From positions 34,489-98,488 of the IMG/VR virus record IMGVR_UViG_3300036820_000007: a DNA stretch of 64,000 nt. One strand, 5' to 3'. Below, one piece after another: positions 279 through 63,534 of the stretch. This DNA is from a virus. The position numbers were made by a program, and so were the translations under genes. The first letter of the stretch is position 1. Every line of letters starts with the position of its first letter. Below the pieces are notes generated by a model that saw only the letters and a program-made list of their open reading frames with translations, did no database searches and had not been told where the DNA came from.

Positions 279-370
279 GGCCCGAGTTACCCTGCTCCGG
301 CGTGTCATCCCAGGTTGGGGTGACAACGCCCGTATGTGACGTGTACCCTAGGCGTCAGTCGAAGGAGTAT

Positions 371-420
371 GCCCCGAGTTCGGCGTCACGCCAAGTCAGG
401 GGCCTTTTTCATGCCCGGGG
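371..420 (+). terminator. Hairpin plus T-tract, copy 1 of a repeated intergenic element
   Basis: GCCCC (371-375) can pair with GGGGC (399-403) around an inner GGCG-tca-CGCC hairpin, followed by TTTTT and then CATGCCCGG. The same order (GC hairpin, T-tract, C A/T TGCCC) recurs before other structural genes, so this is one member of a family rather than an isolated terminator. Confidence 0.5.
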
Positions 421-594
421 CCAGCGGCAGGGACTCCCGATTCTCCACCCTGCATACCGGGGCCGCCGGTGTTGCCCCCGGCGCGGGTTCTCGCGAACGC
501 CCGGCGTCCTGAATTTGTGGATCGTATCTATTAGACGACGCTGGCCAGCCTGGAGCCTAGCGCAGCCCGTTCCCCCGCGGGCAGGCTAACCCGT

Positions 595-625
595 TCGCAC
601 ACTCGCACACTCGCACATTCGCACG
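595..625 (-). repeat. Four 8-bp-period direct repeats (iteron-like), left array
   Basis: Read on the minus strand the array is GTGCGAAT, GTGCGAGT, GTGCGAGT, GTGCGA in perfect 8-bp register. A second array with the same consensus (RTGCGANY) lies beside parA at 56111-56150. Iterons of this kind are typical of partition (parS) or origin sites. It may instead be a simple repeat in a leader. Confidence 0.6.
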
Positions 626-650
626 CCCGCCTCCCGGCCGGGCGTTTTTT
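624..650 (+). terminator. Hairpin plus T6, copy 2 of the repeated element
   Basis: CGCCCG (624-629) pairs with CGGGCG (639-644), followed by TTTTTT (645-650) and CTTTGCCGGGG. It sits about 20 nt before the GTG of the protease gene, so it could act as a leaky terminator or RNA-processing site in front of it. Confidence 0.6.
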
Positions 651-670
651 CTTTGCCGGGGGGAGCAATC

Positions 671-3646
671 GTGGCGCACACCACTGCCGATGCCCTGACG
701 TACGTCTCGTTTCCTATCGAGAAATTCGAGGAGGACGACGAGGGCAACCTGATCGTCGTCGGCAAGGCGACGGACGGCAGCGTCGACAGCGACCGCCAGA
801 TCGTCGACCCGGGCTGGAGCGCGAAGGCTCTGGGGGACTGGCACGACACGGGTGGCAACGTGCGTGTGATGCACAATCCGGGCCTCTACCCGGCCGGCCG
901 CAGCCTGAAGGTGGAGACCTCGGCGGACGGCCACACGGTGAAGGCCCTCGTCGTCGAGGACACGGCGAAGAAGCTGGTCAAGAACCGCGTCCTGCGCGCC
1001 TACTCGGTCGGCATCGCCGAGCCCGTGATCGAGCGCGACATGACCGGCAAGGCGGTCGGTGGCCGCATCACAGGTGGCCGCATCGTCGAATTGTCCCTAG
1101 TTGACCGACCTGCCAACAAAAATTGCGGTTTGACCCTCGCCAAGGCAGAAGGCCATGACGCGGCCTGGTCATACGGCGACCTGGACGCCCTGCTCGAGAA
1201 GGCTGAGAAGGCCGAGGAGCAGCCCGGCGAGGCAGCCCACGACCCGGCCGATCCGAACGCGCCCAGCGACGGCGAGGAAGTCGACCAGTCGGACGTGGTC
1301 AAGGCCGACGGCGGCGGCGACTCGGGTGGCGAGGGCGGCGGCAGCGAAGGTGCACAGGGAGACTCCGCGTCAGCCGACCAGGCCGACGGCGACGGCGACG
1401 ATGATGGCGGCGAGGCCGTGAAGATGGCCGGCGACGCTTACCGGGCCGCGCGCAAGGAGTGGCTTGGCCGCGAGCCGGGCACCAAGGGGATCACCGGCGG
1501 CACGGAGTACTTGGCCAAGCGCGCTGACTGGCACCGGTGGAACGCCGAAGGCGAAGCGGAAGGCCTGGACGGCACCCGCGAAGGCGCTGAGCGCTGGCTG
1601 GCGAAGCAGGCGGCAGAAGCTCCCGCCGCAGACGCAGACAAGCGCGACTTCTCGGCCTCCGAGCGCCGGTCCGCTGCCAGCAGCGGGGCCGCTATGAGCG
1701 ACGGCAGCTTCCCGATCAAGACGAAGGAAGACCTCAAAAACGCGATCCATCTGGCCGGCCACGCCAAGGACCCGGGCAAGGCCCGCGCACACATCAAGGC
1801 CCGCGCGGCCGCGATCGGCGCCTCGGACATGATCCCGGACTCGTGGAAGATCGACACCGCTGAGATCCCGGCTGACGTCACGCTGGCCAAGCTCGAGAGC
1901 GACGGCGAGGTGAGCACGGAGATCGCCAAGGCCATGCTCGGTGACGAGCAGTACGGCGTGCTCACCAAGGCGGACTCCACCGCAGCGGCGCCAGGGAAGA
2001 CGAAGTGCGGCACCTGCAGCGGCAGCGGCTCGATCAAAGACGGCAACGTGACCTGCCCGGACTGCAAGGGCAAGGGCAAGATGAAGCCGAAGAAGGCAGC
2101 CAAGGCCGCGGCCCTCGCGGCCGTTGCTGAGATGGTGGCCAAGTCGGTCACCGCCGGGCTGATCTCCGAGAAGGCCGCCCAGGACATCCTGCACCAGGTG
2201 CAGCCCGAAGGCGGATTCCTGCACCAGTCCGGCAAGCGCCCCCTTCCCGCCGACGTGGCTGCGGTAGCGCACCACCGCGAGCCGGACGGCTCCAGCGGCG
2301 TCGAGCAGTTCGAGCACGACTCGGGCCTGCCCACCCAGGCCGACGCGGTCGCCGACAAGGTCCCGTCCTCGGTAGATGCCCTGCAGATGAAGTCTGACGC
2401 CCCTTACGCGGTGGCGCGGATGCACGACGCGTTCTGTGCCGCCTGGAGCGGTGACGCCGTGCTCGGCGAGTACCCGTCCCTGAAGAGCGCCGCCGATGCC
2501 GCGGACCCGGCGTGGTTCACCGCGCAGGCCCAGAAGGCAGTCGATGCTGGCTATGCCAGTGATGCGATAGAGCTGCTCACGCTGGCCAAGGAAGCCGCCG
2601 CGGTGAAGTCGGCGGATGCTGCAGTCATCGCTGACGGGCGCGCGGAACTGCACAAGGCGTTCTCCGACATGTACCCGTCGGAGCGGATCCGGCCGGGCGA
2701 CCCTCGCAAGCCAGGCTCGTTCCAGCGGCCCTACCTGTCCGCCGGTCACGCCACTGAGCACGCAGGCGGCAGCACGAACGTCCCGCCGTCCACGGACACG
2801 CCCGCGCCGGACCAGTTCCACCGCGGCTACCTCAGCGAAGGCCACGCGGACCCATCCCCGGCCGACAACGGGCCGAACAACCGGGCCGCGCCGACGACCG
2901 GGTCCGCCAGGACCTACTACACGACCTCGGCCAAGGAGCAGGCGCGCGTCGCGATGCAGGCCATGCACGACCACATCGCGGCCAGCCACCCCGAACTCTG
3001 CCCGATGGCCCCGTCCAAGAGCGTCATGCCGCCGGACCTGGGCGCGCGCAACGTGCCGCAGCCGAAGGCCCCGATGGCCATGGGCGGCGTCGCCGGAGTG
3101 GGCAAGGCCGCGGATGCCTCGGCGAACGGCGCGCTGGAGACCCAGAACGAGCAGGCCTTCGGCCAGGCTAAGCCGCCGAAGAACCGCAAGAAGAAGAAGC
3201 TCTCCAAGGGCGAGTTCTTCAGCTACGCACAGCGGCACGGCCTCACCGTCGTGCCCGCCAGCGAAGGCCCGGTTCCGGTGCCGCAGCCAGCTCCCGACCC
3301 GGTGGCCGTCAAGGCCCTGGTCGCCGAGCAGCTGACCCCGCTCACCGAGCACTACGAGAAGCAGATTTCCGAGCTCCGCCTCCAGGTGGACAAGCTCGGG
3401 GCACAGCCCGATCCGGCCATGGCCCCCGTGCGCGGCCCGATGGCACGGCCCGGTGCGACCGGCGCAGCTCCCGTGGAGAAGCGCAGCCTGGTCGATGAAG
3501 CACGCGAGCGCGCCGACCACATGGCGGCCGCAGAGCGGCGCGACTTCATGGCGTATGTGGAAATGCAGAGCCGCTCACCTGACCCGAAAGTCCGCGAGAA
3601 GGCAATGGCCATCATCGAGAAGATGGACGCCACCGTTCCCGCCTGA
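671..3646 (+). CDS. Prohead protease fused to a very long scaffold-like region
   Basis: The N-terminal ~155 residues look like an XkdF/HK97-type prohead serine protease: a VMHNPG histidine (His68) and an ELSLVDRPAN serine motif (Ser142) in the expected order. This enzyme cleaves scaffold and capsid protein during head maturation. The other ~830 residues are far longer than usual. They include an acidic Gly/Asp-rich stretch (~200-260), a segment like the phage DUF6582 family (~345-395), a DnaJ-like zinc finger with CxxCxGxG spacing (~446-470), repeats around RPYLSAGHA/RGYLSEGHA (~690-730) and a Pro/Glu-rich helical end. The long part may be scaffold, by analogy with protease-scaffold fusions. 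GTG 671 is chosen because GGGGGGAG precedes it; a TTG at 653 has no better site. The capsid gene follows. Confidence 0.85.
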   Translation: MAHTTADALTYVSFPIEKFEEDDEGNLIVVGKATDGSVDSDRQIVDPGWSAKALGDWHDTGGNVRVMHNPGLYPAGRSLKVETSADGHTVKALVVEDTAKKLVKNRVLRAYSVGIAEPVIERDMTGKAVGGRITGGRIVELSLVDRPANKNCGLTLAKAEGHDAAWSYGDLDALLEKAEKAEEQPGEAAHDPADPNAPSDGEEVDQSDVVKADGGGDSGGEGGGSEGAQGDSASADQADGDGDDDGGEAVKMAGDAYRAARKEWLGREPGTKGITGGTEYLAKRADWHRWNAEGEAEGLDGTREGAERWLAKQAAEAPAADADKRDFSASERRSAASSGAAMSDGSFPIKTKEDLKNAIHLAGHAKDPGKARAHIKARAAAIGASDMIPDSWKIDTAEIPADVTLAKLESDGEVSTEIAKAMLGDEQYGVLTKADSTAAAPGKTKCGTCSGSGSIKDGNVTCPDCKGKGKMKPKKAAKAAALAAVAEMVAKSVTAGLISEKAAQDILHQVQPEGGFLHQSGKRPLPADVAAVAHHREPDGSSGVEQFEHDSGLPTQADAVADKVPSSVDALQMKSDAPYAVARMHDAFCAAWSGDAVLGEYPSLKSAADAADPAWFTAQAQKAVDAGYASDAIELLTLAKEAAAVKSADAAVIADGRAELHKAFSDMYPSERIRPGDPRKPGSFQRPYLSAGHATEHAGGSTNVPPSTDTPAPDQFHRGYLSEGHADPSPADNGPNNRAAPTTGSARTYYTTSAKEQARVAMQAMHDHIAASHPELCPMAPSKSVMPPDLGARNVPQPKAPMAMGGVAGVGKAADASANGALETQNEQAFGQAKPPKNRKKKKLSKGEFFSYAQRHGLTVVPASEGPVPVPQPAPDPVAVKALVAEQLTPLTEHYEKQISELRLQVDKLGAQPDPAMAPVRGPMARPGATGAAPVEKRSLVDEARERADHMAAAERRDFMAYVEMQSRSPDPKVREKAMAIIEKMDATVPA

Positions 3647-27027: not shown

Positions 27028-29379
27028 GTGTCCTACCCCGTGCCGGGCTATCCGCTTTACGTCGACGGCGCCTACTACACCGCCGCGCAGTGGCGCGAGC
27101 TCGACGGCGGCACTTCGGTGCAGGACGCGGGCTCCCCGTCCTCGGTGTTCCCGGCCAGCGGCGTCTACCCGGACTCCGGCACCGCCATGCAGGTGCTGCC
27201 CGGCGGCGGCATGACCGCAACCGTCAACGCGGGCTACTGCTCGATCGCCTCCTCGGCCGGGGTGGGCGCGTACCGGTTTGGCCTGATGCAGCAGGCCACG
27301 CTGACCGTGGCAGCCAACTCGACCGGGTCGACCCGGCTGGATTATGTGATCGCCGGGGTCAGCGACGACGGGTCCGGGTCCACGTCTGCCGTCGAGTACC
27401 TGGCCGGCACCACCTCACCCCCCGCTCAGCCCGCCAACTCGCTGCTGCTCGCCGAGATCTCGGTCCCCAACGGCGCCTCCTCGGTCACCTCCGGGGACAT
27501 CACCGACCTGCGGACGTTCGTGGCCGCGCCCGGGTGCATCGTGCCGGTCATCTCCGCGGCGGACGCGCCGTCGGGCCCGACGGGCCAGCTGTACTACAAC
27601 GTCGCCAACGGGCAGCTTCTGTACTCGCCGGTGACTGACGTCGTGGAAGAGCTCACCGGAACCGGCAACTGGACCTGCCCCTCGTACGTGTCCGCAGTGG
27701 CCGCCCGGGCAATCGGCGGCGGCGGCGGGGGTACAGGGGTCGTCTCAGGCGCCGGCGGATCAGCCACGTTCACCGCCTCGTCCAGCTGGACCGCCCCTAC
27801 CGGGGTGAGCGCTGTCACGGTGGAATGCTGGGGCGCGGGCGGCTCGGGCGGAGGCAGCGAGCAATACTACTACGGCTCTGGCGCCGGTGGCGGCGGCGGC
27901 GGCGGCGGCTTCTCGGCCGGGACCGTGCCGGTCACCGCCGGGAGTTCTTACCAGGTCACCGTTGGTGTGGGCGGCAACTCAGCCAGCGGAACCGCTTCCG
28001 GTAACAACGGGGGCCCGTCTTCGTTTACCGGGGATGCGGGATCAGGCGGGGCACCCGCAACGATCACCGCAGGCGGCGGCCAGCGGGGGTTCTCGTCTTC
28101 GGCCGGCAACTCCGGAGAAGGCGGAGCTGGTGGCAGCGGGGACTGGACGGGCGGCACCGGCGGCCAGGGCGGAAGTTACGACGGCGGCGGCGGCGGGGGC
28201 GGCGCCGGGGACGGGTCGGATGGCGGCTCGGGCGGCCATCCAGCCGCAGGCGCCGGCGGCGCCGGCGGCGGCAGCGGCGGTGCTGGCGGCAATACCGGCG
28301 GCGAGTACGGCGGCAGCGAGGCAGGCGGCGCCAACGGCGGCTCGCCCGGGGGTGGCGGTGGCGGTGGCGGCACGCCGCAAATTCCCGACTCCGGTCCTTC
28401 CGCATCCGGCGACGGCGCCAGGGGCATGGTCATCTTGTCCTGGACCCCGTTCGGGTCCGGCGGGGGGGGCGGGGGCGGGGGCGAGGAAGCCTACGAGCCC
28501 GCGATGGCCGTCAGTTCCGGCCAGTCATATTCCTACTCGGTAGGAACAGGCGGCGGCGACAGCGCCGACGGGACGGCCACAACATTCACTGCCAGGACAG
28601 TGACCCTGGCTGCCAGCGGCGGCCAGGCCACCGATGAGCTGGCCACCGGAGGAGCCGGCGGTACCGGCAGTTCCAACACTCAGCATTTCGACGGCGGCGC
28701 CGCGGGCACTGGCTCCACGGGATCGGGCCAGGAAGGCTTCGGCGGCGGCGGCGGTGCTTCCGGGTCGACGACCGGCACCGGCGGTGCTGGAGGTAACGCA
28801 ACCGCTACTGCGGCGGGGGCCGGGGGAACGGCAGGACCTTACGGGGGCGCCGGGGGCACCGGTGGCGGCGGCAACGGCGCCAACGGGGCCGCGCCTGGCG
28901 GCGGCGGGGGAGGAAGCAGCGGGGAAAGCCTCGGCTACTCCGGCGGCACCGGCGGCGGCGGGTCGCTGACCCTCACTTACACGATCGCGCCGGGGGCCAT
29001 CCCGTACCAGCTGGCCAGCACCCGGTCCTGGTACCAGTACGAGCCCGCGGGCTCCCTGTCGTCGGTGAGCCTGTCCATGACCGCCGACGGGATCAGCGAC
29101 TACGAGATCAGCGTGTGGGCGGCCAACACTGGCCCCAAGGTGAGCGCCACCCACGGCCAGCTGCAGATCCTCGCCGACGGCAAGCAGCTCGACGCGATCA
29201 GCGCCCAGTCCTCGACGGGCGTAACCAAATCCGGGTACTGGAACGCAGGCTGGACGTTCTATACCTCCGGCGCGCAGGGCACCACCCTGTCCCAGGGTGC
29301 CCACACGATCGAATTCACTTCGTCGTTCGGCACCCTGGAAGGCCCGGCATACGTCCGCGTCACGCAGGTGCTCGCGTAG
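27028..29379 (+). CDS. Glycine-rich tail adhesin
   Basis: 783 residues. N-terminal docking head shared with the upstream protein (LPGGGMTATVNAGYCSIAS...FGLMQQATLTV), then two Gly-rich blocks (~230-470 and ~475-650). The first begins FTASSSWTAPTGVSAVTVECWGAGG, a motif repeated in the protein at 31659 (SLIVECWGAGG). Such polyglycine sandwiches form receptor-binding tips in some phages. The C-terminal ~130 residues are a compact beta domain. A G8 homopolymer at 28462-28469 lies in frame and is a possible slippage site. GTG 27028. Confidence 0.8.
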   Translation: MSYPVPGYPLYVDGAYYTAAQWRELDGGTSVQDAGSPSSVFPASGVYPDSGTAMQVLPGGGMTATVNAGYCSIASSAGVGAYRFGLMQQATLTVAANSTGSTRLDYVIAGVSDDGSGSTSAVEYLAGTTSPPAQPANSLLLAEISVPNGASSVTSGDITDLRTFVAAPGCIVPVISAADAPSGPTGQLYYNVANGQLLYSPVTDVVEELTGTGNWTCPSYVSAVAARAIGGGGGGTGVVSGAGGSATFTASSSWTAPTGVSAVTVECWGAGGSGGGSEQYYYGSGAGGGGGGGGFSAGTVPVTAGSSYQVTVGVGGNSASGTASGNNGGPSSFTGDAGSGGAPATITAGGGQRGFSSSAGNSGEGGAGGSGDWTGGTGGQGGSYDGGGGGGGAGDGSDGGSGGHPAAGAGGAGGGSGGAGGNTGGEYGGSEAGGANGGSPGGGGGGGGTPQIPDSGPSASGDGARGMVILSWTPFGSGGGGGGGGEEAYEPAMAVSSGQSYSYSVGTGGGDSADGTATTFTARTVTLAASGGQATDELATGGAGGTGSSNTQHFDGGAAGTGSTGSGQEGFGGGGGASGSTTGTGGAGGNATATAAGAGGTAGPYGGAGGTGGGGNGANGAAPGGGGGGSSGESLGYSGGTGGGGSLTLTYTIAPGAIPYQLASTRSWYQYEPAGSLSSVSLSMTADGISDYEISVWAANTGPKVSATHGQLQILADGKQLDAISAQSSTGVTKSGYWNAGWTFYTSGAQGTTLSQGAHTIEFTSSFGTLEGPAYVRVTQVLA
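28462..28469 (+). repeat. G8 homopolymer inside adhesin gene
   Basis: Eight consecutive G within a G/C tract (G8 C G5 C G5 C). One-base slippage would truncate or switch off the adhesin, while hexamer changes would add or remove two glycines. Confidence 0.7.
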
Positions 29380-30609
29380 ATGCCTCTCACTGCGGCCCAG
29401 CTGGCCGCGATCGGCGCCCCTCCGGCAAACCCCACGTCCGAATACAGATACATTGCAACTGATCTTTTGTCGGGCGCCATTCTCGGCGACTGGATCCCGA
29501 TGGACGGCACCTACGGGCTGTCCCTCGCCCGTCAGATCAACGGCACCGGCACGTTCACCGGCGCGCTGAGCCTCACCGCGGGCAATGCCCTCGAGCAGGT
29601 GGCGTGGCGCAACTCAATTGCCAACAGGCGCACCATGATATGGCTGCTGCTCGACGGCACCCCGGTCTGGAACGGCATCCTCTGGGACTGGCAGCCGCAG
29701 ACGATCCTCGACGGCACGATGCCTTTCTCGGCGTCGACGTTCGACTCCCTGTGCGCCTACCGGGTGATCCAGGACGACCTGACCTTCACCGGAATGGATG
29801 TTTTCGACATCTTCCGGTCCCTGGTCACCTATGCGCTGACCAAAGATGTCAGTACCCAGGCCGCCGGGCTGAACCTCGGCAATAACGAGTCCGGGGTCAG
29901 TGCCACGGTCACGTTCACCGGCTCAGACATGCAGCTGGTATCGGACGCGTGGCAGAACATGGTCGCCGAATTCGGGTTCGAGTACGCGTTCGCACCCGGC
30001 CTGGACGTCAACGGCAACCTGACCACGTACCTGAACCTGGGCTACCCGGAACTGGGCCTGACATTTCCCCAGTCAGGCCTGGCGTACGCCATGCCGGGCA
30101 ATCTGCTCGATTACCAGTGGACAGCGACCGGCAGCACGAGTTCCAACAAAGTGATCGCGACCGCAACCGACTCCACCGGCAGCGGCACCACCTGGACCTC
30201 CCAGTACCCGGCCGGATACGACCTGGTTGACCTGGCCGCCGGCAACCCCCTGCTCGAGCAGGCCGTGTCGGTGACCACCCTCTCGATCACCGACCAGGCA
30301 CAGATCGACGCCTATGCCACCGGTTACCTGCCCGCGGTGACCGGCACACAGCTCACGCCGACCTTGTGGCTGGGCAACGGGCAAGGGCCTGCGGTCAGCG
30401 ACATTGTGCTCGGATCCTGGTGCCAGCTGGCGCTCACGTCGCCACTGCACCCGGCCGGGCCGAATGGGCAGCCGGGATTCCAGGGACAGGCCCGGATCAC
30501 TGGATGGACCCTATACCCCCCAACTGACCAGCAAGCGGAATATACCTGGGTCCAGTGCTGGATACCGGTCCCTTACCTGCCAGATGGCACCTTTACCGGC
30601 ACCAGCTGA
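29380..30609 (+). CDS. Baseplate hub/tail protein (Tal or gp37-like)
   Basis: 409 residues, starting at the base after the previous stop. YRYIATDLLSGAILGDWIPMDGTYGLSLARQINGTGTFTGAL and ...WNGILWDWQPQTILDGTMPFSASTFDSLCAYRVIQDDLTFTGMDVFDIFRSLVTYALTK match the siphovirus ReqiPepy6 Gp37-like/hub style common in actinophages: beta domain, then helical, then the VVATATDSTGSG-type barrel. It likely forms the tail tip hub. No peptidase motif seen. Confidence 0.75.
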   Translation: MPLTAAQLAAIGAPPANPTSEYRYIATDLLSGAILGDWIPMDGTYGLSLARQINGTGTFTGALSLTAGNALEQVAWRNSIANRRTMIWLLLDGTPVWNGILWDWQPQTILDGTMPFSASTFDSLCAYRVIQDDLTFTGMDVFDIFRSLVTYALTKDVSTQAAGLNLGNNESGVSATVTFTGSDMQLVSDAWQNMVAEFGFEYAFAPGLDVNGNLTTYLNLGYPELGLTFPQSGLAYAMPGNLLDYQWTATGSTSSNKVIATATDSTGSGTTWTSQYPAGYDLVDLAAGNPLLEQAVSVTTLSITDQAQIDAYATGYLPAVTGTQLTPTLWLGNGQGPAVSDIVLGSWCQLALTSPLHPAGPNGQPGFQGQARITGWTLYPPTDQQAEYTWVQCWIPVPYLPDGTFTGTS

Positions 30610-30638
30610 CCGGCTGGCCGAGGGGGTGGAGTTCCAGC

Positions 30639-30875
30639 ATGTCCGCCATCCCCAAGCCGATTACCACGCGCATGCCGTATGCGATCAAGCAGACGATGCA
30701 CAAGAACGCCGTGCACGGTCAGCAGATCATCAACATCCAGACCCAGCTCGCAGCGCTGACCGCGGCGGTGTCGTCGTCCGGGTCCGTGAGTTCGGCCCCC
30801 TCCGCCTACACCGACGCCTGGGGCGCCGAAGTGGTCGCCGTCCTCAACGCCCTCATCAGCGCGCTGCAGCCCTGA
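30639..30875 (+). CDS. Small helical protein next to hub gene
   Basis: 78 residues. MSAIPKPITTRMPYAIKQTMHKNAVHGQQIINIQTQLAALTAAVSSS has a helix that could trimerise, followed by an Ala-rich end WGAEVVAVLNALISAL. ATG 30639 follows GGGGGTGGAGTTCC. It is perhaps a baseplate connector. No family recognised. Confidence 0.65.
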   Translation: MSAIPKPITTRMPYAIKQTMHKNAVHGQQIINIQTQLAALTAAVSSSGSVSSAPSAYTDAWGAEVVAVLNALISALQP

Positions 30876-30941
30876 TCTTCCGGTAACCCTTTCCGCTCAC
30901 CGGCCCGGCGCCCGGGCCTTCATTCCCGAAGGAGGCGCCGG

Positions 30942-31202
30942 GTGTTTTTGGTGACCTGCGACAACCCGGCCTGCAGAGGCCAGGGCTTCACCGAGAAGTC
31001 GGAGCCCGGCGATTTCGACGACGCGGTGCGGTGCACCACGGGCGCCGGGACGCCGAAAGGCAGCTCCGCGGGCCTGTGCTGCGTCGTGCACCGCTCCCAC
31101 GAGGCGCATGTCGAGCACGTCCGCAAGAGCGGCGACTCATCCTGCCGCCCGGTGACGATCATCGTCATCCCGGGCCACGTGCGCGTGAACGCGGGAGGCT
31201 GA
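30942..31202 (+). CDS. Cys/His-rich small protein
   Basis: 86 residues with CDNPACRGQGF near the start, then CTTG, CCVVHRSHEAHVEH and a later SCR; probably a zinc-binding fold. GTG 30942 is preceded by GAAGGAGGCGCCGG. The next gene follows after 1 nt. It lies within the tail-fibre operon, but the fold suggests binding or regulation rather than structure. Unknown function. Confidence 0.65.
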   Translation: MFLVTCDNPACRGQGFTEKSEPGDFDDAVRCTTGAGTPKGSSAGLCCVVHRSHEAHVEHVRKSGDSSCRPVTIIVIPGHVRVNAGG

Positions 31203-31203
31203 C

Positions 31204-31599
31204 GTGGCTGCCGTTGACCAGACTCGCGCCAATACGGTCCTGGGCGCGATGCTGGCCCAAAATGCATGTGAGGCGAGCAGCGGCATTCACACGCGGCTGA
31301 CGTCGACGGTCCCAACCGCCAGCACGGCGGGCACCGAACTCGCCGGTGGCGGCGGCTACACGACCGGGGGCACGGTCACCACCTGGAATGCCCCGTCGGC
31401 AGGCGCCACGAGCAACATCACCGTGCTGACCTGGACCAACTCCTCAGGCAGCACCTGGTCGATCGCGGGCCTCGAGCTGTGGGACGAGGCGGGTACGCCG
31501 CTGCGGTGGCTGTTCGGGACATTCGGGACAACTCTGTCCATAGCGAACACCAACACGCTCCAGGTGGCCGCGGCTGCCATCGAGATCACGCTCTCGTGA
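31204..31599 (+). CDS. Small minor tail protein
   Basis: 131 residues, mostly beta, with VTTWNAPSAGATSNITVLTWTNSSGSTWSIAGLELWDEAGTPLRWLFGTF, a pattern seen in short phage tail proteins downstream of hub genes. GTG 31204, one base after the previous stop. Uncharged, Thr/Ser/Gly-rich composition fits a virion surface protein. Confidence 0.7.
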   Translation: MAAVDQTRANTVLGAMLAQNACEASSGIHTRLTSTVPTASTAGTELAGGGGYTTGGTVTTWNAPSAGATSNITVLTWTNSSGSTWSIAGLELWDEAGTPLRWLFGTFGTTLSIANTNTLQVAAAAIEITLS

Positions 31600-31658
31600 T
31601 TTATCCCTGATAGTCCGGATTGACTCGCGCACCCGACCCCGCGCCGGGGGTGTGAGCG

Positions 31659-32963
31659 ATGCCGACCCAGACCTACACCACGTCCGGTACGCACACTTTC
31701 ACCGTCCCCGCCGGGGTCACGTCGCTGATCGTGGAATGCTGGGGCGCGGGCGGGGGTGGCGGCGGCGGCGGCCGGGGTGGTGGCCCGTACCCGAACAGCG
31801 GCGCGGGCGGGGGTGGCGGCGGCGAGTATGCGGCCGCGACCGTTGCGGTCACCGCCAGCGCGCCTTACACGGTCACGGTCGCCGGCGGGGGCGCGGGAGG
31901 CGGCGCGGGAGGCAGTCCCGGGCACAGCCCCGCGGCAACCACCTTCCCGGGCAATGACGTCACGGTCACCGCCAACTCCGGTGAGGGCGCCGACGGCGGC
32001 TTCGCCGGGAGCGGGGGCACGGGCAGCACCAACAGTACCCATTTTGATGGCGGCAATGGCGGTTCGGCTTCCTACTCCAATGGGGGCGCCGGGGGCGGTT
32101 CGTCAGCGGGCACCGGCGCGTCGGGCAACCCTGGCCAGACCGCCATTGGCGAGGCGGGCGGCGGCGGCGCGGCGCCATCTGGCGGCGGCGATGGCGGCGA
32201 TGGCGGCGAAACCGGCAGCGGTGGCGACTCCGGTACCGGGCCAGGCGGTGGCGGCGGGGGCGGGTACGGCACCAGCGTCGGCGACGCCGCCGGAGGCGCC
32301 GGGGCCACCGGGCAGGTCATCATCACCTGGAGCGTTGCCACCGTCACGGCCGGCCTGGCCGCAGCATTTACCCTGACCGCCAGCGCCACCACCGCGGGTA
32401 TCGCGGCGCTGAGCGCCACTGCGGCCATCAGTGCCTCGGCTTCGTCCGTCGTCCCGCAGCCAATAGCGGCACAGGTCACCGTGACCCCCACTGCCTCCAC
32501 GGGTTACGGCGCAACCCTGAGCACCTCTGCAACGCTGGAGCCCGCGCCCACCTTGATCTACGGCGCCTCCCTGCCGATGGCAACCACTTTCGCGGTGGCG
32601 ACTCCCGGCCCGCTCGCGGCTGCAGTGATCGCGGTTGCCGGGACGCTCGTCGCGTACCCGCCGCCCGTGCCTACGGCCAACGCGCTGCTCCCGGTCAGCG
32701 TCGTGCTGACGGTGGTGACGGATACCGGCGGCGCGGCCGTCCTGCCAGTTGCCGTGGTCCTGGATGCGCTGCCCGGCTCTTACGGCATTGCCAGCCTGGA
32801 TGCGCAAGCCGCTCTCACCTCAGCAGGCGGCAACGTGGCCACCACCGCTGCCCTGTTCGCGGAGACCGCCCTTGAGCCTGCGCTGACGCTGCTCACCGTC
32901 TACACCCTCGAAGTCTGGTCGACCCCGGACAAGGTCAAGCGTTCCGGCGCGATCATGCAGTAA
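31659..32963 (+). CDS. Glycine-rich tail adhesin, second copy
   Basis: 434 residues. It begins with TYTTSGTHTFTVPAGVTSLIVECWGAGGGGG, so the glycine-rich tip domain starts near residue 1 with no docking head, and runs to about residue 222 (GQVIITWS). The remaining ~200 residues are Ala/Thr/Val-rich repeats (ATVTAGLAAAFTLTASATTAGIAAL...) ending LEVWSTPDKVKRSGAIM. The missing N-terminal docking part distinguishes it from the copy at 27028. ATG 31659. Confidence 0.75.
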   Translation: MPTQTYTTSGTHTFTVPAGVTSLIVECWGAGGGGGGGGRGGGPYPNSGAGGGGGGEYAAATVAVTASAPYTVTVAGGGAGGGAGGSPGHSPAATTFPGNDVTVTANSGEGADGGFAGSGGTGSTNSTHFDGGNGGSASYSNGGAGGGSSAGTGASGNPGQTAIGEAGGGGAAPSGGGDGGDGGETGSGGDSGTGPGGGGGGGYGTSVGDAAGGAGATGQVIITWSVATVTAGLAAAFTLTASATTAGIAALSATAAISASASSVVPQPIAAQVTVTPTASTGYGATLSTSATLEPAPTLIYGASLPMATTFAVATPGPLAAAVIAVAGTLVAYPPPVPTANALLPVSVVLTVVTDTGGAAVLPVAVVLDALPGSYGIASLDAQAALTSAGGNVATTAALFAETALEPALTLLTVYTLEVWSTPDKVKRSGAIMQ

Positions 32964-50277: not shown

Positions 50278-50322
50278 CACCCGCCCTCTGTCCCTGCTCA
50301 GGGACAGAGGGCGGGTGTTTTT
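50278..50322 (+). terminator. Strong intrinsic terminator ending the late region
   Basis: Perfect 19-bp stem: arms 50278-50296 and 50299-50317 (CACCCGCCCTCTGTCCCTG and its complement), then TTTTT. It stands between convergent gene sets, closing the rightward late operon. Confidence 0.9.
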
Positions 50323-52446: not shown

Positions 52447-52518
52447 TGCGATCCCTCTCTTCGGGTCCCGCTGTCCCCGCCGCGGGGACAGCGGCGGGGA
52501 CAGCGGGAACGCCGGGGC

Positions 52519-53742: not shown

Positions 53743-54420
53743 CTAGCGCATACCTTGCCAGACGGCAACCAGGGCGGAGGCGCGCAGCAGCACCTCATCG
53801 TCAGGTGGCGGGGAGAGGTTTCTTGCCTCGTAGCAGAGGGTGCTCAGCCATCCCACCACTGAGCCCGTACCGAACTCCGGATCGCCCAGCACGTCCGCCA
53901 GCTCGCCGATTGTCCCGGCCAGTTCTTCAGGGAGACGGTCGGCAGCGCTCACGATATCCGCCGTCACCCGGTCAATCTCCGGACGGAAGGCCGCCACCCA
54001 CGACGGCTCGCGGTTCCGGGTCGGAGGGCGCCGCCGCCCCGCTCGCGCGTCCTTGCGGCGCTCAGGGCCAGCGCCGGCTTCGAGCCGTTGCGACATCTCC
54101 TTGGCTCCCGAGCGGCCGCGGAATCCCCAGATCACCGCGATCCGCTCCCAGGTGATCCCGCAGGCGCGCGCAACCTGGATCACGCCCAGGTCCTCGCGGT
54201 CGGCGATGGTCTTCAGTGCGCGCCGTATGAGCAGCGCATCTTCCGCGTCAGCCGCCAGGACGCTCGCCGGAACCTTGCGGTGGGTACGCACGTACCGGGC
54301 CACGCCAGCAGGATCATCGGGCAGCAGCTCGCTATCATCGCAGCGGGCGCGGCGAACGCGGATCCGGCCAGCAGCGGCTTCGCATACGCGCTCCGGCGGC
54401 TCATCTGCCACGACGTTCAT
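53743..54420 (-). CDS. HTH DNA-binding protein next to parAB
   Basis: 225 residues. DAEDALLIRRALKTIADREDLGVIQVARACGITWERIAVIWGFRGRSGAKEMSQRL is a helix-turn-helix of a kind frequent in Streptomyces plasmids and phages. The C-terminal part (RPEIDRVTADIVSAADRLPEELAGTIGELADVLGDPEFGTGSVVGWLSTL) is helical and may dimerise. The ATG lies inside an 18-bp inverted repeat (54402-54444), suggesting autoregulation. Partition or replication-control role is possible; no enzyme motif. Confidence 0.72.
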   Translation of the reverse strand: MNVVADEPPERVCEAAAGRIRVRRARCDDSELLPDDPAGVARYVRTHRKVPASVLAADAEDALLIRRALKTIADREDLGVIQVARACGITWERIAVIWGFRGRSGAKEMSQRLEAGAGPERRKDARAGRRRPPTRNREPSWVAAFRPEIDRVTADIVSAADRLPEELAGTIGELADVLGDPEFGTGSVVGWLSTLCYEARNLSPPPDDEVLLRASALVAVWQGMR

Positions 54421-54444
54421 GAAACGTGAACGTCGTGGCAGATG
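54402..54444 (-). promoter_or_regulatory. Perfect 18-bp inverted repeat over the HTH gene start
   Basis: Arms 54402-54419 and 54427-54444 are exact complements with a 7-nt loop. On the mRNA the AUG (54418-54420) falls at the loop/right-arm junction, so folding would hide the start. It could equally be an operator for a dimeric repressor. It lies between the two leftward genes. Confidence 0.8.
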
Positions 54445-54453
54445 TCAAGTGCG

Positions 54454-55101
54454 TCAGCCACCAGCCTGGTCCGCGTCGAGCTCATCGAGCACCCGGGCCA
54501 GTGCTTCGGCCTGCACTTCCCAGGCCCATATGCCGGGGATGAGCTTCAGCCGCTCGGAAAGCTGGTGCATCGCCAGGGCCACGTCCTCATGCAGCTGAGA
54601 CCCTGCCCTCGTGGGCTTGCGGCTCGCGTCGCCGCGGACGCGCCACGCCAGGGCCCATTGTGCCGCCTCGGGAGGTACCCACGCTGCCAGTTCCTCAGGG
54701 TCCTCCGGCGGGAACCAGTCTTCCAGCGGGGACTGCGGGATCCGTGCGAACGCCACGTTCAGGTAGTGCAGGAGGCCGAGCTGAAGGTCTCCGCTGGCGT
54801 CCCGGTCGCGGACAAGCCGGCGCACCAGCCGGGCCGACAGGGTGTCCGGCAGCTGGGTCGTGTACCGCACCCAGGCCTGGGGCTCGTGCCGTGACGAGTT
54901 CCGCGCAGCGATCACGGCCTCGCGTGCACTGACGCGGCTTCGCGATCGCCTGGAACGCGGCGGCTGGACCGGCCGCGCGAACTCCTTCGGCTCGATCGCA
55001 GCAGCGACAGGGCGCAGGGGAGTGCTTTCCGGCGCTTCGTCATCAGGCAGGGGCCTCGGCACGCCGATCAGCCCGCGGAACTTGTTATCTCGCGGCGGCA
55101 C
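54454..55101 (-). CDS. Probable ParB-like partner of ParA
   Basis: 215 residues from GTG 55101, overlapping the ParA stop by 17 nt, the usual parAB arrangement. Arg-rich middle (RSRRSRSRVSAREAVIAARNSS) followed by an all-helical C-terminal part (LSARLVRRLVRDRDASGDLQLGLLHYLNVAFARIP; EDVALAMHQLSERLKLIPGIWAWEVQAEALARVLDEL). It lacks an obvious ParB/Spo0J nuclease motif, so it could be a small centromere-binding protein of the type Ib-like or actinophage parB class. Call based mainly on position. Confidence 0.6.
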   Translation of the reverse strand: MPPRDNKFRGLIGVPRPLPDDEAPESTPLRPVAAAIEPKEFARPVQPPRSRRSRSRVSAREAVIAARNSSRHEPQAWVRYTTQLPDTLSARLVRRLVRDRDASGDLQLGLLHYLNVAFARIPQSPLEDWFPPEDPEELAAWVPPEAAQWALAWRVRGDASRKPTRAGSQLHEDVALAMHQLSERLKLIPGIWAWEVQAEALARVLDELDADQAGG

Positions 55102-55888
55102 GGTGCGCACCTCCCCGCCTGCGGTCGGCCTTCTCGGCAACTTCCGCAGCGAACGCCTTGTAGGCGTCGGCCAGATCCGGGTGCATGCCCTTGTCGCTGG
55201 CCACGATCCGGTCGGCCACGGCATCCTCCGCGCCTGCGCGCTGGGGGATCGCCGTTGCGAATGACGGGTAAGCGCTCTCATCGATCTCGGCGACCACGTC
55301 GCGCCCGATCCGGGTCCGCGCGTCGACCTTCGTCGCCAGCAGGCCCAGCAGCGTCGCCTCGATCACCTCGTCGTCGCGCTGTTCGTCGATCCAGCCGATG
55401 AACTTGGCCAGGGCCGACATGCTCCATACGGCCGCGCTGACCGGGATGATGATGTGCTCAGCCGCGACCAGGGCGCCGAGGGTGAGGTGTGACAGGTTGG
55501 GCCCGGTGTCGAAAAGGATGTAGTCAAACTCGCCGCGCACGGGCCGCAGGGCGCGCTCGATACGCTGCTCGCCTGCCGCAGAGACCACGAGCTCCTTGTC
55601 CAGCAGCGCCAGATCGAACCCGGCCGGCAGTACGCGCAGGCCGTCAACACGCGTCGGCCGGATCACATCGCGCACCGGGACGCGCTCGGCGATGATTGAG
55701 CGCAGGGTCCGGGTGATGTCAGCTTCGGGAATGAACATCTCACTGGCATTCGCCTGCGGGTCGCAGTCCACGAGAAGTACTGCGTAGCCCTGGCTGGCGA
55801 GGCACGCGGCCAAGTTGACGGCCGTGGTCGTCTTGCCCACGCCGCCCTTGAACATCGCTAGCGTGATTACGGTTGCCTGGGGGGACAT
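55085..55888 (-). CDS. parA: ParA partition ATPase
   Basis: 267 residues. Deviant Walker A KGGVGKTT (residues 14-21), A' LVDCDPQAN, Walker B YILFDTGP, and the ParA/Soj body (RGEFDYILFDTGPNLSHLTLGALVAAEHIIIPVSAA). It moves prophage-plasmid DNA by ATP-dependent gradients with a ParB and parS. ATG 55888 is preceded by CTGGGGGC; the frame is open 80 codons further but that stretch is not ParA-like. A short palindrome spans the start (55877-55896), and an iteron array lies ~225 nt upstream. Confidence 0.9.
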   Translation of the reverse strand: MSPQATVITLAMFKGGVGKTTTAVNLAACLASQGYAVLLVDCDPQANASEMFIPEADITRTLRSIIAERVPVRDVIRPTRVDGLRVLPAGFDLALLDKELVVSAAGEQRIERALRPVRGEFDYILFDTGPNLSHLTLGALVAAEHIIIPVSAAVWSMSALAKFIGWIDEQRDDEVIEATLLGLLATKVDARTRIGRDVVAEIDESAYPSFATAIPQRAGAEDAVADRIVASDKGMHPDLADAYKAFAAEVAEKADRRRGGAHRAAAR

Positions 55889-55896: not shown

Positions 55897-56213
55897 ATGG
55901 TAGACCGCCTTCGTGGCCCAGGGGAAGCACTGGCGCACGATTGCCTTCCCTTTTCTGCCCGGGCATGCCGCGCTTGCGCATCGCCTGTACTGGGCCACCG
56001 GCGGAAGAGTGCACGGCGGGCGCTGCGGGCGCTGCGGGGGAGTGGCTTCTACCTTCGGGCACGCGCGGTCGCCCTGGTGCTGTGCCGGTCACGTCCACTA
56101 GCCCCTTCACGTGCGCACGCCTCCACATGCGAACGTGCGACTATGCGAATGCAGTAAGCGCACACCCTGCCAAGCGCCGCGCATGTCACCCTGAGAGGGT
56201 AAGATGTAACGCT
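55889..56213. other. Divergent intergenic region parA / gene 56214
   Basis: 325 nt without a gene. It holds the iteron array (56111-56150), the parA start palindrome and a leaderless-type promoter for the rightward gene. This is the best candidate for a parS or origin region in the window. Confidence 0.5.
56111..56150 (+). repeat. 8-bp-period iteron array beside parA, right array
   Basis: In register from 56111: GTGCGCAC, (GCCTCCAC), ATGCGAAC, GTGCGACT, ATGCGAAT. Consensus RTGCGANY, the same as the minus-strand reading of the left array (595-625). Confidence 0.65.
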
Positions 56214-58341: not shown

Positions 58342-58533
58342 ATGATTCCAGAAGAGACGGTCGCGGCCGACGATGTCCGGCGGCGCTTTCGCGAACTGCT
58401 CAACGAGGTCGAGCACCAGGGCGCCCATCTGACAGTGACTCGCTACGGGGAGACGGCTGCCGTCATCGTGCCCTACGACTGGTACCAGGAAGCCAGGGCA
58501 ATGACGAAGGGGGAGAGGGCCGTCAGTGAGTAA
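58342..58533 (+). CDS. Phd/YefM-type antitoxin, orphan
   Basis: 63 residues. EETVAADDVRRRFRELLNEVEHQGAHLTVTRYGETAAVIVPYDWYQEA is the complete N-terminal Phd/YefM fold (swapped DNA-binding dimer) with the G.TAAVIVP.DWY signature. The usual toxin (RelE or Doc type) is not downstream; the next gene is unrelated. It may regulate its own operon or neutralise a host toxin. Its promoter overlaps the start. Confidence 0.82.
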   Translation: MIPEETVAADDVRRRFRELLNEVEHQGAHLTVTRYGETAAVIVPYDWYQEARAMTKGERAVSE

Positions 58534-60653: not shown

Positions 60654-61733
60654 ATGCTCAGCGAACCCGAGGGCGAACCGCTTACTGGCGTCGTCGTCAG
60701 CCTGAACAATAGGCCCAGCCGCACGATCGCCCATGACCTGCCGATCCCGGACGCGGCTCGCCCGGCTGACGTGAATCCCTACAGCGTCTACCTAGCCTCG
60801 CTCGCGAAGGGCAATTCGCGGCGAACGACGACCTACCGCCTAGACCAGGTCGCCTGCCTTGCGTGGGGCATTGAGTACAAACGGGGCAACTGCGGCAGCC
60901 GGGGCATCGGAGCCTTCTTTCCCTGGGAGGCGCTCCGGTTCCAGCACACGTCCGCGATCCAGGCCGAGATGATAAGCCAGGTCTGGAGCCCATCCCGCGC
61001 GAACGCCTGCCTCAGCGCCATGCGGAAGACGCTCCAGACCGCCTGGAAGCTCCAGCTCATATCAACCGACGACTACCAGCTAGCACGTGAAGTCAAAGAC
61101 GTCAAGGGCAGCCGTGTTCGCGCGGGTCGCAGCATCCATCCCGACGAGATGGCAGCCATGATGAAGGCGGCACTGGCCGATCCGGATGACCCAGCCGGAA
61201 TACGTGACGCCGCCCTCATCAGCCTGCTCTGGTCCACCGGGGCTCGCGAGGCCGAGGCCGCGGCGGGGGCAATCGAGCACTACGATGCAGGCCGCCGCAG
61301 GCTGAAACTTCTCGGGAAGGGCAACAAGGAGCGCTACGTCTACCTGCACACGAACGCCGCGCTGGCCCTAGAGCGATGGCTGGCTTTCCTCAACGCACGC
61401 AGCGGGCCCATCTTCAGGAAAATCGACAAGCACGGCCACATCTCGCCGAAGGCCGTAGCTTCCTGCAGCGTCTATTACATCGTCAACCGCCGACGCCTGC
61501 AGGCAGGACTGGCGCCACTCACCCCTCATGATTTCCGGCACACCTTCATCGGCGACATACTCGACGCCGGCGCTCACCTCCCCCAGGCTCAGGAACTCGC
61601 CGGGCACGAGAGCGTTAACACCACCGCCGCTTACGTGCGGCACGACGAAGGCGCCTTGCGAGATGCCGTCGACCGGCTGCCGATTCCGGACATCATGGCG
61701 CTTGCGGGCGCCGCGAAGGATGGCGCGGGATGA
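60654..61733 (+). CDS. Tyrosine recombinase (integrase or resolvase)
   Basis: 359 residues. SAM-like N-terminal core-binding domain (NPYSVYLASLAKGNSRRTTTYRLDQVACLAWG), then catalytic domain: Arg in WSTGAREAE (~197), Lys in LLGKGNKERYV, HxxR in TPHDFRHTF (~291-294), GHE and Tyr in TTAAYVRHD (~327). Could integrate the phage, or resolve multimers if it is plasmid-like. ATG 60654 is preceded by GAGGGGAGACTGC. No att site could be recognised; the next gene overlaps the stop (ATGA). Confidence 0.9.
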   Translation: MLSEPEGEPLTGVVVSLNNRPSRTIAHDLPIPDAARPADVNPYSVYLASLAKGNSRRTTTYRLDQVACLAWGIEYKRGNCGSRGIGAFFPWEALRFQHTSAIQAEMISQVWSPSRANACLSAMRKTLQTAWKLQLISTDDYQLAREVKDVKGSRVRAGRSIHPDEMAAMMKAALADPDDPAGIRDAALISLLWSTGAREAEAAAGAIEHYDAGRRRLKLLGKGNKERYVYLHTNAALALERWLAFLNARSGPIFRKIDKHGHISPKAVASCSVYYIVNRRRLQAGLAPLTPHDFRHTFIGDILDAGAHLPQAQELAGHESVNTTAAYVRHDEGALRDAVDRLPIPDIMALAGAAKDGAG

Positions 61734-62675: not shown

Positions 62676-62942
62676 GTAACGAACCAGACAAGGGACAGGC
62701 CCTCCCTGCCGCCATTCAGTGACGTGCCGGGGGCGTGCCCGAAGTGCGGCAAAACGGGAGTCACAGCTGCGTGGCATCGCTTTGGCGGCGAGCTAGGCAG
62801 CAATAAGGGATTCCCGTGCTACCACATCTTCCGGAAAGAGCACATGTGCAGAAGATGCCCCACCTGCGGGTACGGCTGGATGGAGGCGACCGCGGATGCG
62901 GCCGACGCGCAGGGTCAGCTTGCGGCGGCGCTCAATGCCTAA
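62673..62942 (+). CDS. Zinc-ribbon protein
   Basis: 89 residues from GTG 62673. GACPKCGKTG and CRRCPTCGYGWME give two CxxC knuckles ~36 residues apart, a typical zinc ribbon. It lies between repeat-led gene 62262 and the kinase. Its last 8 nt overlap the kinase start. Confidence 0.7.
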   Translation: MVTNQTRDRPSLPPFSDVPGACPKCGKTGVTAAWHRFGGELGSNKGFPCYHIFRKEHMCRRCPTCGYGWMEATADAADAQGQLAAALNA

Positions 62943-63534
62943 GCCCACGCTGACCGTGCTGATCGGCCCGTCCGGGTCCGGCAAGTCCACCTACGCAGCC
63001 GCACACTGGAAGCCCAGCCAGATCGTCAGCAGCGACCACCTCCGCGAGATGGTCAGCGACGACCCTTGGGACCAGCTGGCCACCACCGACGCGTTCGTGC
63101 TGCTGCACCAGATCGTCGAGATGCGGCTGCAGCGCGGCCTGGACACGGTCGTGGACGCAACCAGCTCCTATGCCGAGCACCGGGCCATCCTGGTGTCCAT
63201 CGCCAGGCAGGAACGTGCATTCGTGCGTGCCGTGGTCATGGCCACTCCGCTGCCTATGTGCCTTGACCGCAATGCGTGCAGGTCGCCGAACGTTCCTGAG
63301 AACGTGGTCGTGGCCCAATGGGAACGGATCGCGGCCGATCTGCGGACACTGGGCCGCGAAGGCTTCGGCGAGATCGAGTTCGCCGGAACCGGTTCAGCGA
63401 AGGCCGTCGAGATTGAGGCGCTGATTGAGGCGTCGTCTTTCGGTACGCCGGGAGCGCGCAAGCTTCGCGAGCGAGGGCGCCAGATGGCCGCCCGGAAAGC
63501 GGAATCGCCGGGCGGAAAGGGCGGCGGAAGGTGA
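62935..63534 (+). CDS. P-loop kinase (polynucleotide-kinase-like, AAA_33)
   Basis: 199 residues. Walker A GPSGSGKST (residues 11-19), QIVSSDHLREMVSDDPWDQLATTDAFVLLHQIVEMRLQRGLDTVVDATSSYAEHRAILVSIARQERAFVRAVVM and C-terminal ARGL-like helices follow the T4 Pnkp/Zeta-toxin-like kinase fold: SSD.LR., D.T, R.RN analogues. It could phosphorylate DNA/RNA ends or a nucleotide. No phosphatase domain. ATG 62935. Confidence 0.8.
   Translation: MPKPTLTVLIGPSGSGKSTYAAAHWKPSQIVSSDHLREMVSDDPWDQLATTDAFVLLHQIVEMRLQRGLDTVVDATSSYAEHRAILVSIARQERAFVRAVVMATPLPMCLDRNACRSPNVPENVVVAQWERIAADLRTLGREGFGEIEFAGTGSAKAVEIEALIEASSFGTPGARKLRERGRQMAARKAESPGGKGGGR

Follow-up and report, generated by a model that had tools for sequence, protein, structure and literature searches.

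Two distant arrays of one 8-bp repeat and a candidate ParA partition module in a probable actinobacterial phage

Introduction

Does a parA operon on a phage genome, together with two short arrays of the same repeat lying about 55 kb apart, amount to a partition system that could keep the prophage as a plasmid? Phage-borne partition modules mark prophages that possibly persist in this state, and plasmid-state prophages are easily overlooked when counts cover integrated prophages only. The window analyzed here is a stretch of 64,000 nucleotides, bases 34489-98488 of the 98,488-bp IMG/VR virus record IMGVR_UViG_3300036820_000007. A preliminary description of this DNA had proposed a parABS system with two centromere-like sites, as known for some extrachromosomal actinobacteriophage prophages. 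The features that bear on that proposal are listed in Table 1; positions are those of the window unless the record is named.

Table 1. Positions of the partition genes, repeat arrays and neighboring features in the window
Feature	Position	Strand	Remarks
Noncoding gap, 392 bp, holding the distal array	279-670		Between a reading frame ending at 278 and a gene starting at 671
Distal array	593-624	-	Four RTGCGANY units in 8-bp register
Terminator-like hairpin with T run	628-653	+	Directly after the distal array; 1 found compared to 0.7 expected in shuffles
Partner gene (putative ParB-like role), 215 aa	54454-55101	-	GTG start; 17-bp overlap with parA
parA, 267 aa, Walker-type partition ATPase	55085-55888	-	Pfam AAA_31, phrog_164, start agreement with relatives
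Near unit, GTGCGCAC	56111-56118	+	Same register as the parA array; non-unit at 56119-56126 between
Array at parA	56127-56150	+	Three RTGCGANY units in 8-bp register; lies 239-262 bp ahead of the parA ATG
Xer-like tyrosine recombinase, 359 aa, integrase or dimer resolvase	60654-61733	+	PF00589, phrog_1 and XerC matches

Virus Record and Likely Host

The terminase, portal, head, tape-measure and other late genes lie on the plus strand of the record, and parA belongs to a leftward block. With a G+C content of 67% and actinobacterial proteins as the nearest relatives of its ParA, the phage likely has an actinobacterial host. No close relatives of use, whether by nucleotide sequence or by the partner protein, were found among phages, plasmids and viral contigs. 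Relatives of the terminase were present among viral contigs at 50-58%; in these records, several of them fragmentary, no match to our ParA or to the head gene adjoining the distal array was found. An Rfam search over the window gave no match.

Two other features of the record were observed. The portal protein is fused to a NUDIX domain (L006:9265-12390, record 29265-32390) and resembles ParB over residues 936-1006 (phrog_1033). Long perfect inverted repeats with arms of 19 and 18 bp, at 50278-50317 and 52466-52508, sit where gene direction turns.

parA and Partner Gene

ParA was matched by Pfam AAA_31 (7.7e-44) and by the ParA-like family phrog_164 (2.1e-57), which identifies it as the Walker-type ATPase of a type I (ParA) partition system. 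The start was placed at the ATG at 55888 and not at 56128, because the starts of relatives are equivalent to 55888 and the longer open reading frame is thus an unsupported extension. Identity was 59% to a Pseudonocardia ParA (contig L015) and 56% to the ParA of a 104-kb viral contig, IMGVR_UViG_3300037466_003379 (L057 hereafter).

The partner gene is preceded by GGAGG, as read from the sequence. Its product had no match in Pfam, NCBIfam, the Protein Data Bank, phage records, plasmid records or viral contigs, and nothing in PHROGs except a 15-residue match with an E value of 0.047. ParB_N, the domain that marks HTH-ParB CTPase clamp systems, did not match either. Residues 1 to 30, however, resemble the N-terminal tails of the L057 partner (0 of 2000 shuffles) and the Pseudonocardia L015 partner (1 of 2000), which belong to the loci of the two closest ParAs. 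Beyond this tail there was no significant similarity to those 2 partners, and the protein is otherwise an orphan. The C-terminal halves of the relatives' partners, which hold a ribbon-helix-helix-like part, had no significant local similarity in ours, and profile comparison with the relatives' partners likewise found none. Structure models of the partner, alone and with 2 relatives, were of low confidence (pLDDT 43 and 47). A tandem ribbon-helix-helix reading made by eye was dropped, as shuffles gave it zero support.

In other type I partners, the N-terminal part of the protein stimulates ParA. The same has been described for the N-terminal part of the type I partner ParT (PMC12260392). A tail that is kept in an otherwise changed protein would fit a ParA adaptor, and by this analogy the conserved tail may be what contacts ParA. 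The locus would then be a case in which a putative ParA-contact tail is kept while the remainder of the partner differs.

Just after the partner gene, two 18-bp arms form a perfect inverted repeat around a 7-bp spacer (54402-54444), which covers the start codon of the gene at 53743-54420(-). The repeat folds much more stably than shuffled sequence (z -5.25); terminator, operator and recombination core site are all conceivable roles for it.

Repeat Arrays in the Record

Runs of RTGCGANY in 8-bp register had been reported upstream of parA and, on the minus strand, near 595-625, and both are there. The distal array reads GTGCGAAT GTGCGAGT GTGCGAGT GTGCGAAC and the parA array ATGCGAAC GTGCGACT ATGCGAAT; they point in opposite directions on the genome, approximately 55 kb apart. 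The parA array had been drawn from 56111 to 56150. Its 3 good units stand, whereas the first 16 bp hold one near unit followed by GCCTCCAC, which is no RTGCGANY unit, so the array is shorter than first described. Taken alone, the region upstream of parA has weak 8-bp periodicity (z 2.2), as expected of 3 units.

When the whole 98,488-bp record was scanned for 3 units with up to 2 mismatches, only the 2 arrays were found, and a reversed control pattern gave zero matches under the same conditions. Three-unit runs occurred in 0 of 300 records simulated with a second-order Markov model and two-unit runs in 14 of 300; since the pattern was picked after the sequence was seen, these chance figures are descriptive and do not constitute a corrected probability. 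Among 2.9 million viral contigs, five others held the three-unit pattern, 3 of them as longer simple tandem or G+C-rich repeat stretches and 2 as single three-unit matches.

Do the 2 arrays belong together? It may be that only the parA array is a centromere and that the distal one arose independently, by local tandem duplication of 8 bp, with the GTGCGA core shared by chance. The distal array is indeed a nearly perfect tandem (TCGCACAC repeated), as would come from slippage, and in related loci the second arrays stay near parAB. However, a matrix derived solely from the parA array gave the distal array a score of 26.9. None of 60 simulated 98-kb sequences exceeded 20.3, and elsewhere in the record, outside the 2 arrays, the best score was 12.1. 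The reverse test was weaker: a matrix from the distal array gave the parA array 26.6, compared to a simulated 95% point of 21.7, and the highest of the 60 simulated maxima (29.0) exceeded the score of the parA array. Further three-unit runs are absent from the record, which together with their absence from the simulations also speaks against a chance likeness. We regard an unrelated distal array as possible but doubtful.

Related Partition Loci

Arrays with an 8-bp period were found beside parA in the related loci, each with its own unit. L057 has approximately 17 units in 8-bp register directly upstream of parA, mostly YGTYGCNN and some reversed, with a second, short array just after parB; its 8-bp periodicity reached z 5.3 against block-shuffled sequence. 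In the L058 record, with a ParA of 42% identity, CTAG-type units lie upstream of parA and again approximately 1.5 kb after parB. The Pseudonocardia contig has an 8-bp array after parB, and three Mycobacterium plasmid loci (L041, L014 and L012) show periodicities of 8, 16 and 24 bp upstream of parA. Loci of this group thus appear as a rule to have an 8-bp-periodic array beside parA; ours conforms, although its array is the shortest. The comparison supports reading it as a candidate for the repeated centromere-like sites that lie near the operon of a type I (ParA) system.

L057 is itself a phage by its matches to portal, terminase, head and tape-measure genes, so the predicted module is found on another phage too. 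It shares with ours the ParA similarity, the N-terminal tail of the partner and the 8-bp array upstream of parA. In contrast, its array is far longer and its second array directly follows parB, with none remote; the terminases of the 2 phages have no detectable similarity. When L057 and the L015 contig were scanned, neither had a clear second array at a distance of tens of kb from its parAB; a stretch of mixed orientation in the latter (L129:7200) had a high score. The L057 record also encodes a separate ParB-like protein (phrog_6218, L125:15183-16976), far from its parAB.

Among known systems, the closest in plan is that of RedRock and other cluster A mycobacteriophages, which like ours have a phage-borne parA-parB, 8-bp direct-repeat arrays and more than one parS-type locus. 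The likeness to extrachromosomal actinobacteriophage prophages drawn in the preliminary description was apt, for RedRock carries two parS loci, each built of eight direct repeats of 8 bp (PMC7157519). In the RedRock sequence, which we read directly, eight-unit arrays with a CGAGTAGT-like unit lie on either side of parAB, whereas ours have 3 and 4 units with the second 55 kb off, and nothing comparable lies just downstream of our partner gene. The proteins differ as well in size as read from sequence: RedRock ParA has 185 aa and ParB, which has a marginal ribbon-helix-helix match, 89 aa, compared to 267 aa for our ParA and 215 aa for the orphan partner. RedRock relatives with repA have an additional parS locus of five repeats adjoining repA (PMC7157519), which is a precedent for extra sites, but near the replication region.

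Mycobacterial plasmids (pRAW and relatives, including the three loci above) resemble ours in a ParA of 42% identity, a small overlapping or adjacent partner and periodic repeats upstream of parA. They differ in having RTCACYNN-like units in long arrays and partners of approximately 120-145 aa, whose similarity to ours was undetectable by profile comparison.

The centromere sites of the prophage-plasmid N15 are scattered over its genome. Its Sop system resembles ours in having several separate sites; however, SopA and SopB are F-type, and the sites are built as inverted repeats instead of direct 8-bp arrays. The N15 half-sites read GTGCGACC (PMC7205306, Table 4), and the GTGCGA core that they have in common with our arrays was treated as coincidence.

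The partition module itself thus appears to be a relative of known (RedRock-like phage) modules, with the remote second array as the unusual part; that array and the diverged partner are what is distinctive here. It would extend the 8-bp-array type to a large phage with no close sequence kinship to the studied mycobacteriophages.

Roles of the Two Arrays

On balance, we think it probable that a temperate phage here carries a type I (ParA) partition module, with two arrays bound by the partner and extrachromosomal inheritance as the outcome. ParA would be the motor. The partner would be the adaptor, its N-terminal tail contacting ParA and its remainder predicted to recognize the 8-bp units. Upstream of parA, the array would act as the centromere and probably double as the operon's operator. 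The distal array is most likely a second binding site for the same adaptor, which would then load onto the prophage at two positions. Most simply, such a module would serve the stable inheritance of an extrachromosomal prophage.

Several findings argue for this reading: the ParA family, the presence of only two arrays at a level above chance, the arrays of relatives, and the tail common to 3 partners. Others argue against it. The parA array is short, with 3 units where RedRock has eight and the plasmid relatives far more; the partner is without a family match or a demonstrable DNA-binding fold; the relatives L057 and L015 are without a remote second array; and there is a tyrosine recombinase but no identified plasmid initiator. 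Of the earlier parABS proposal, ParA, the overlapping partner gene and the 8-bp array at parA are upheld by the related loci, while the role of the distal site is one that we infer. A second centromere is the best single guess for it, and the locus offers a testable case of a candidate partition site remote from its operon.

Ribbon-helix-helix partition proteins repress their own operons. Both arrays could accordingly be operators through which a transcription regulator, the partner or another protein, would control the parA and head operons, with no part in partition. The setting of the arrays is consistent with this: the distal array occupies part of the gap ahead of the head gene (671-3646) and adjoins the terminator-like hairpin, and the parA array lies within the likely parA promoter region. 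The hairpin itself is not exceptional in its folding (z -1.22). However, the parA array matches related partition loci in position and in 8-bp period, and operator and partition roles can coexist; we consider operators without partition unlikely. It would be more surprising still, and we give it little credence, if the distal array were a deliberate second loading site in the late gene cluster, by which the partition protein would both segregate the prophage and silence the head operon in the lysogen. If true, prophage inheritance would be linked to lysogeny.

Plasmid or Integrated Prophage

A partition module on a temperate phage somewhat favors a plasmid state, and a phage-plasmid lifestyle is plausible here. 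The ordinary alternative is an integrated prophage: the tyrosine recombinase would insert it into the host chromosome, and the ParA module would be either a relic or of use during lytic growth. The recombinase, whose gene is 4.8 kb from parA, was matched by PF00589 (2.9e-23) and by the phrog_1 integrase family (3.9e-32), so that it may serve phage integration. No plasmid initiator was identified, and no end or terminal repeats were found in the 98,488-bp record, leaving circularity unsupported. However, the best NCBIfam model for the protein was XerC (1.9e-33, below the cut-off of the model), and its many plasmid-borne relatives suggest that it may instead resolve plasmid dimers. In actinobacterial plasmid prophages, PF00589 and ParA/CbiA both rank among the most frequent domains (PMC10023795). 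The record also holds no tRNA and no recognizable host genes or host junction, and a search near the recombinase found no tRNA-like T-loop match and no candidate for a tRNA-type attachment site. An integrated prophage is a real possibility, although not the one we would expect.

PF00589 proteins are also encoded in the L057 and L058 records and are not close to our recombinase. Two more genes in this part of the window were noted. A small open reading frame at 58342-58533 looks, by eye, like a Phd/YefM-type antitoxin, and the gene at 62896-63534 encodes a kinase-like protein (AAA_33) that matches zeta toxin weakly.
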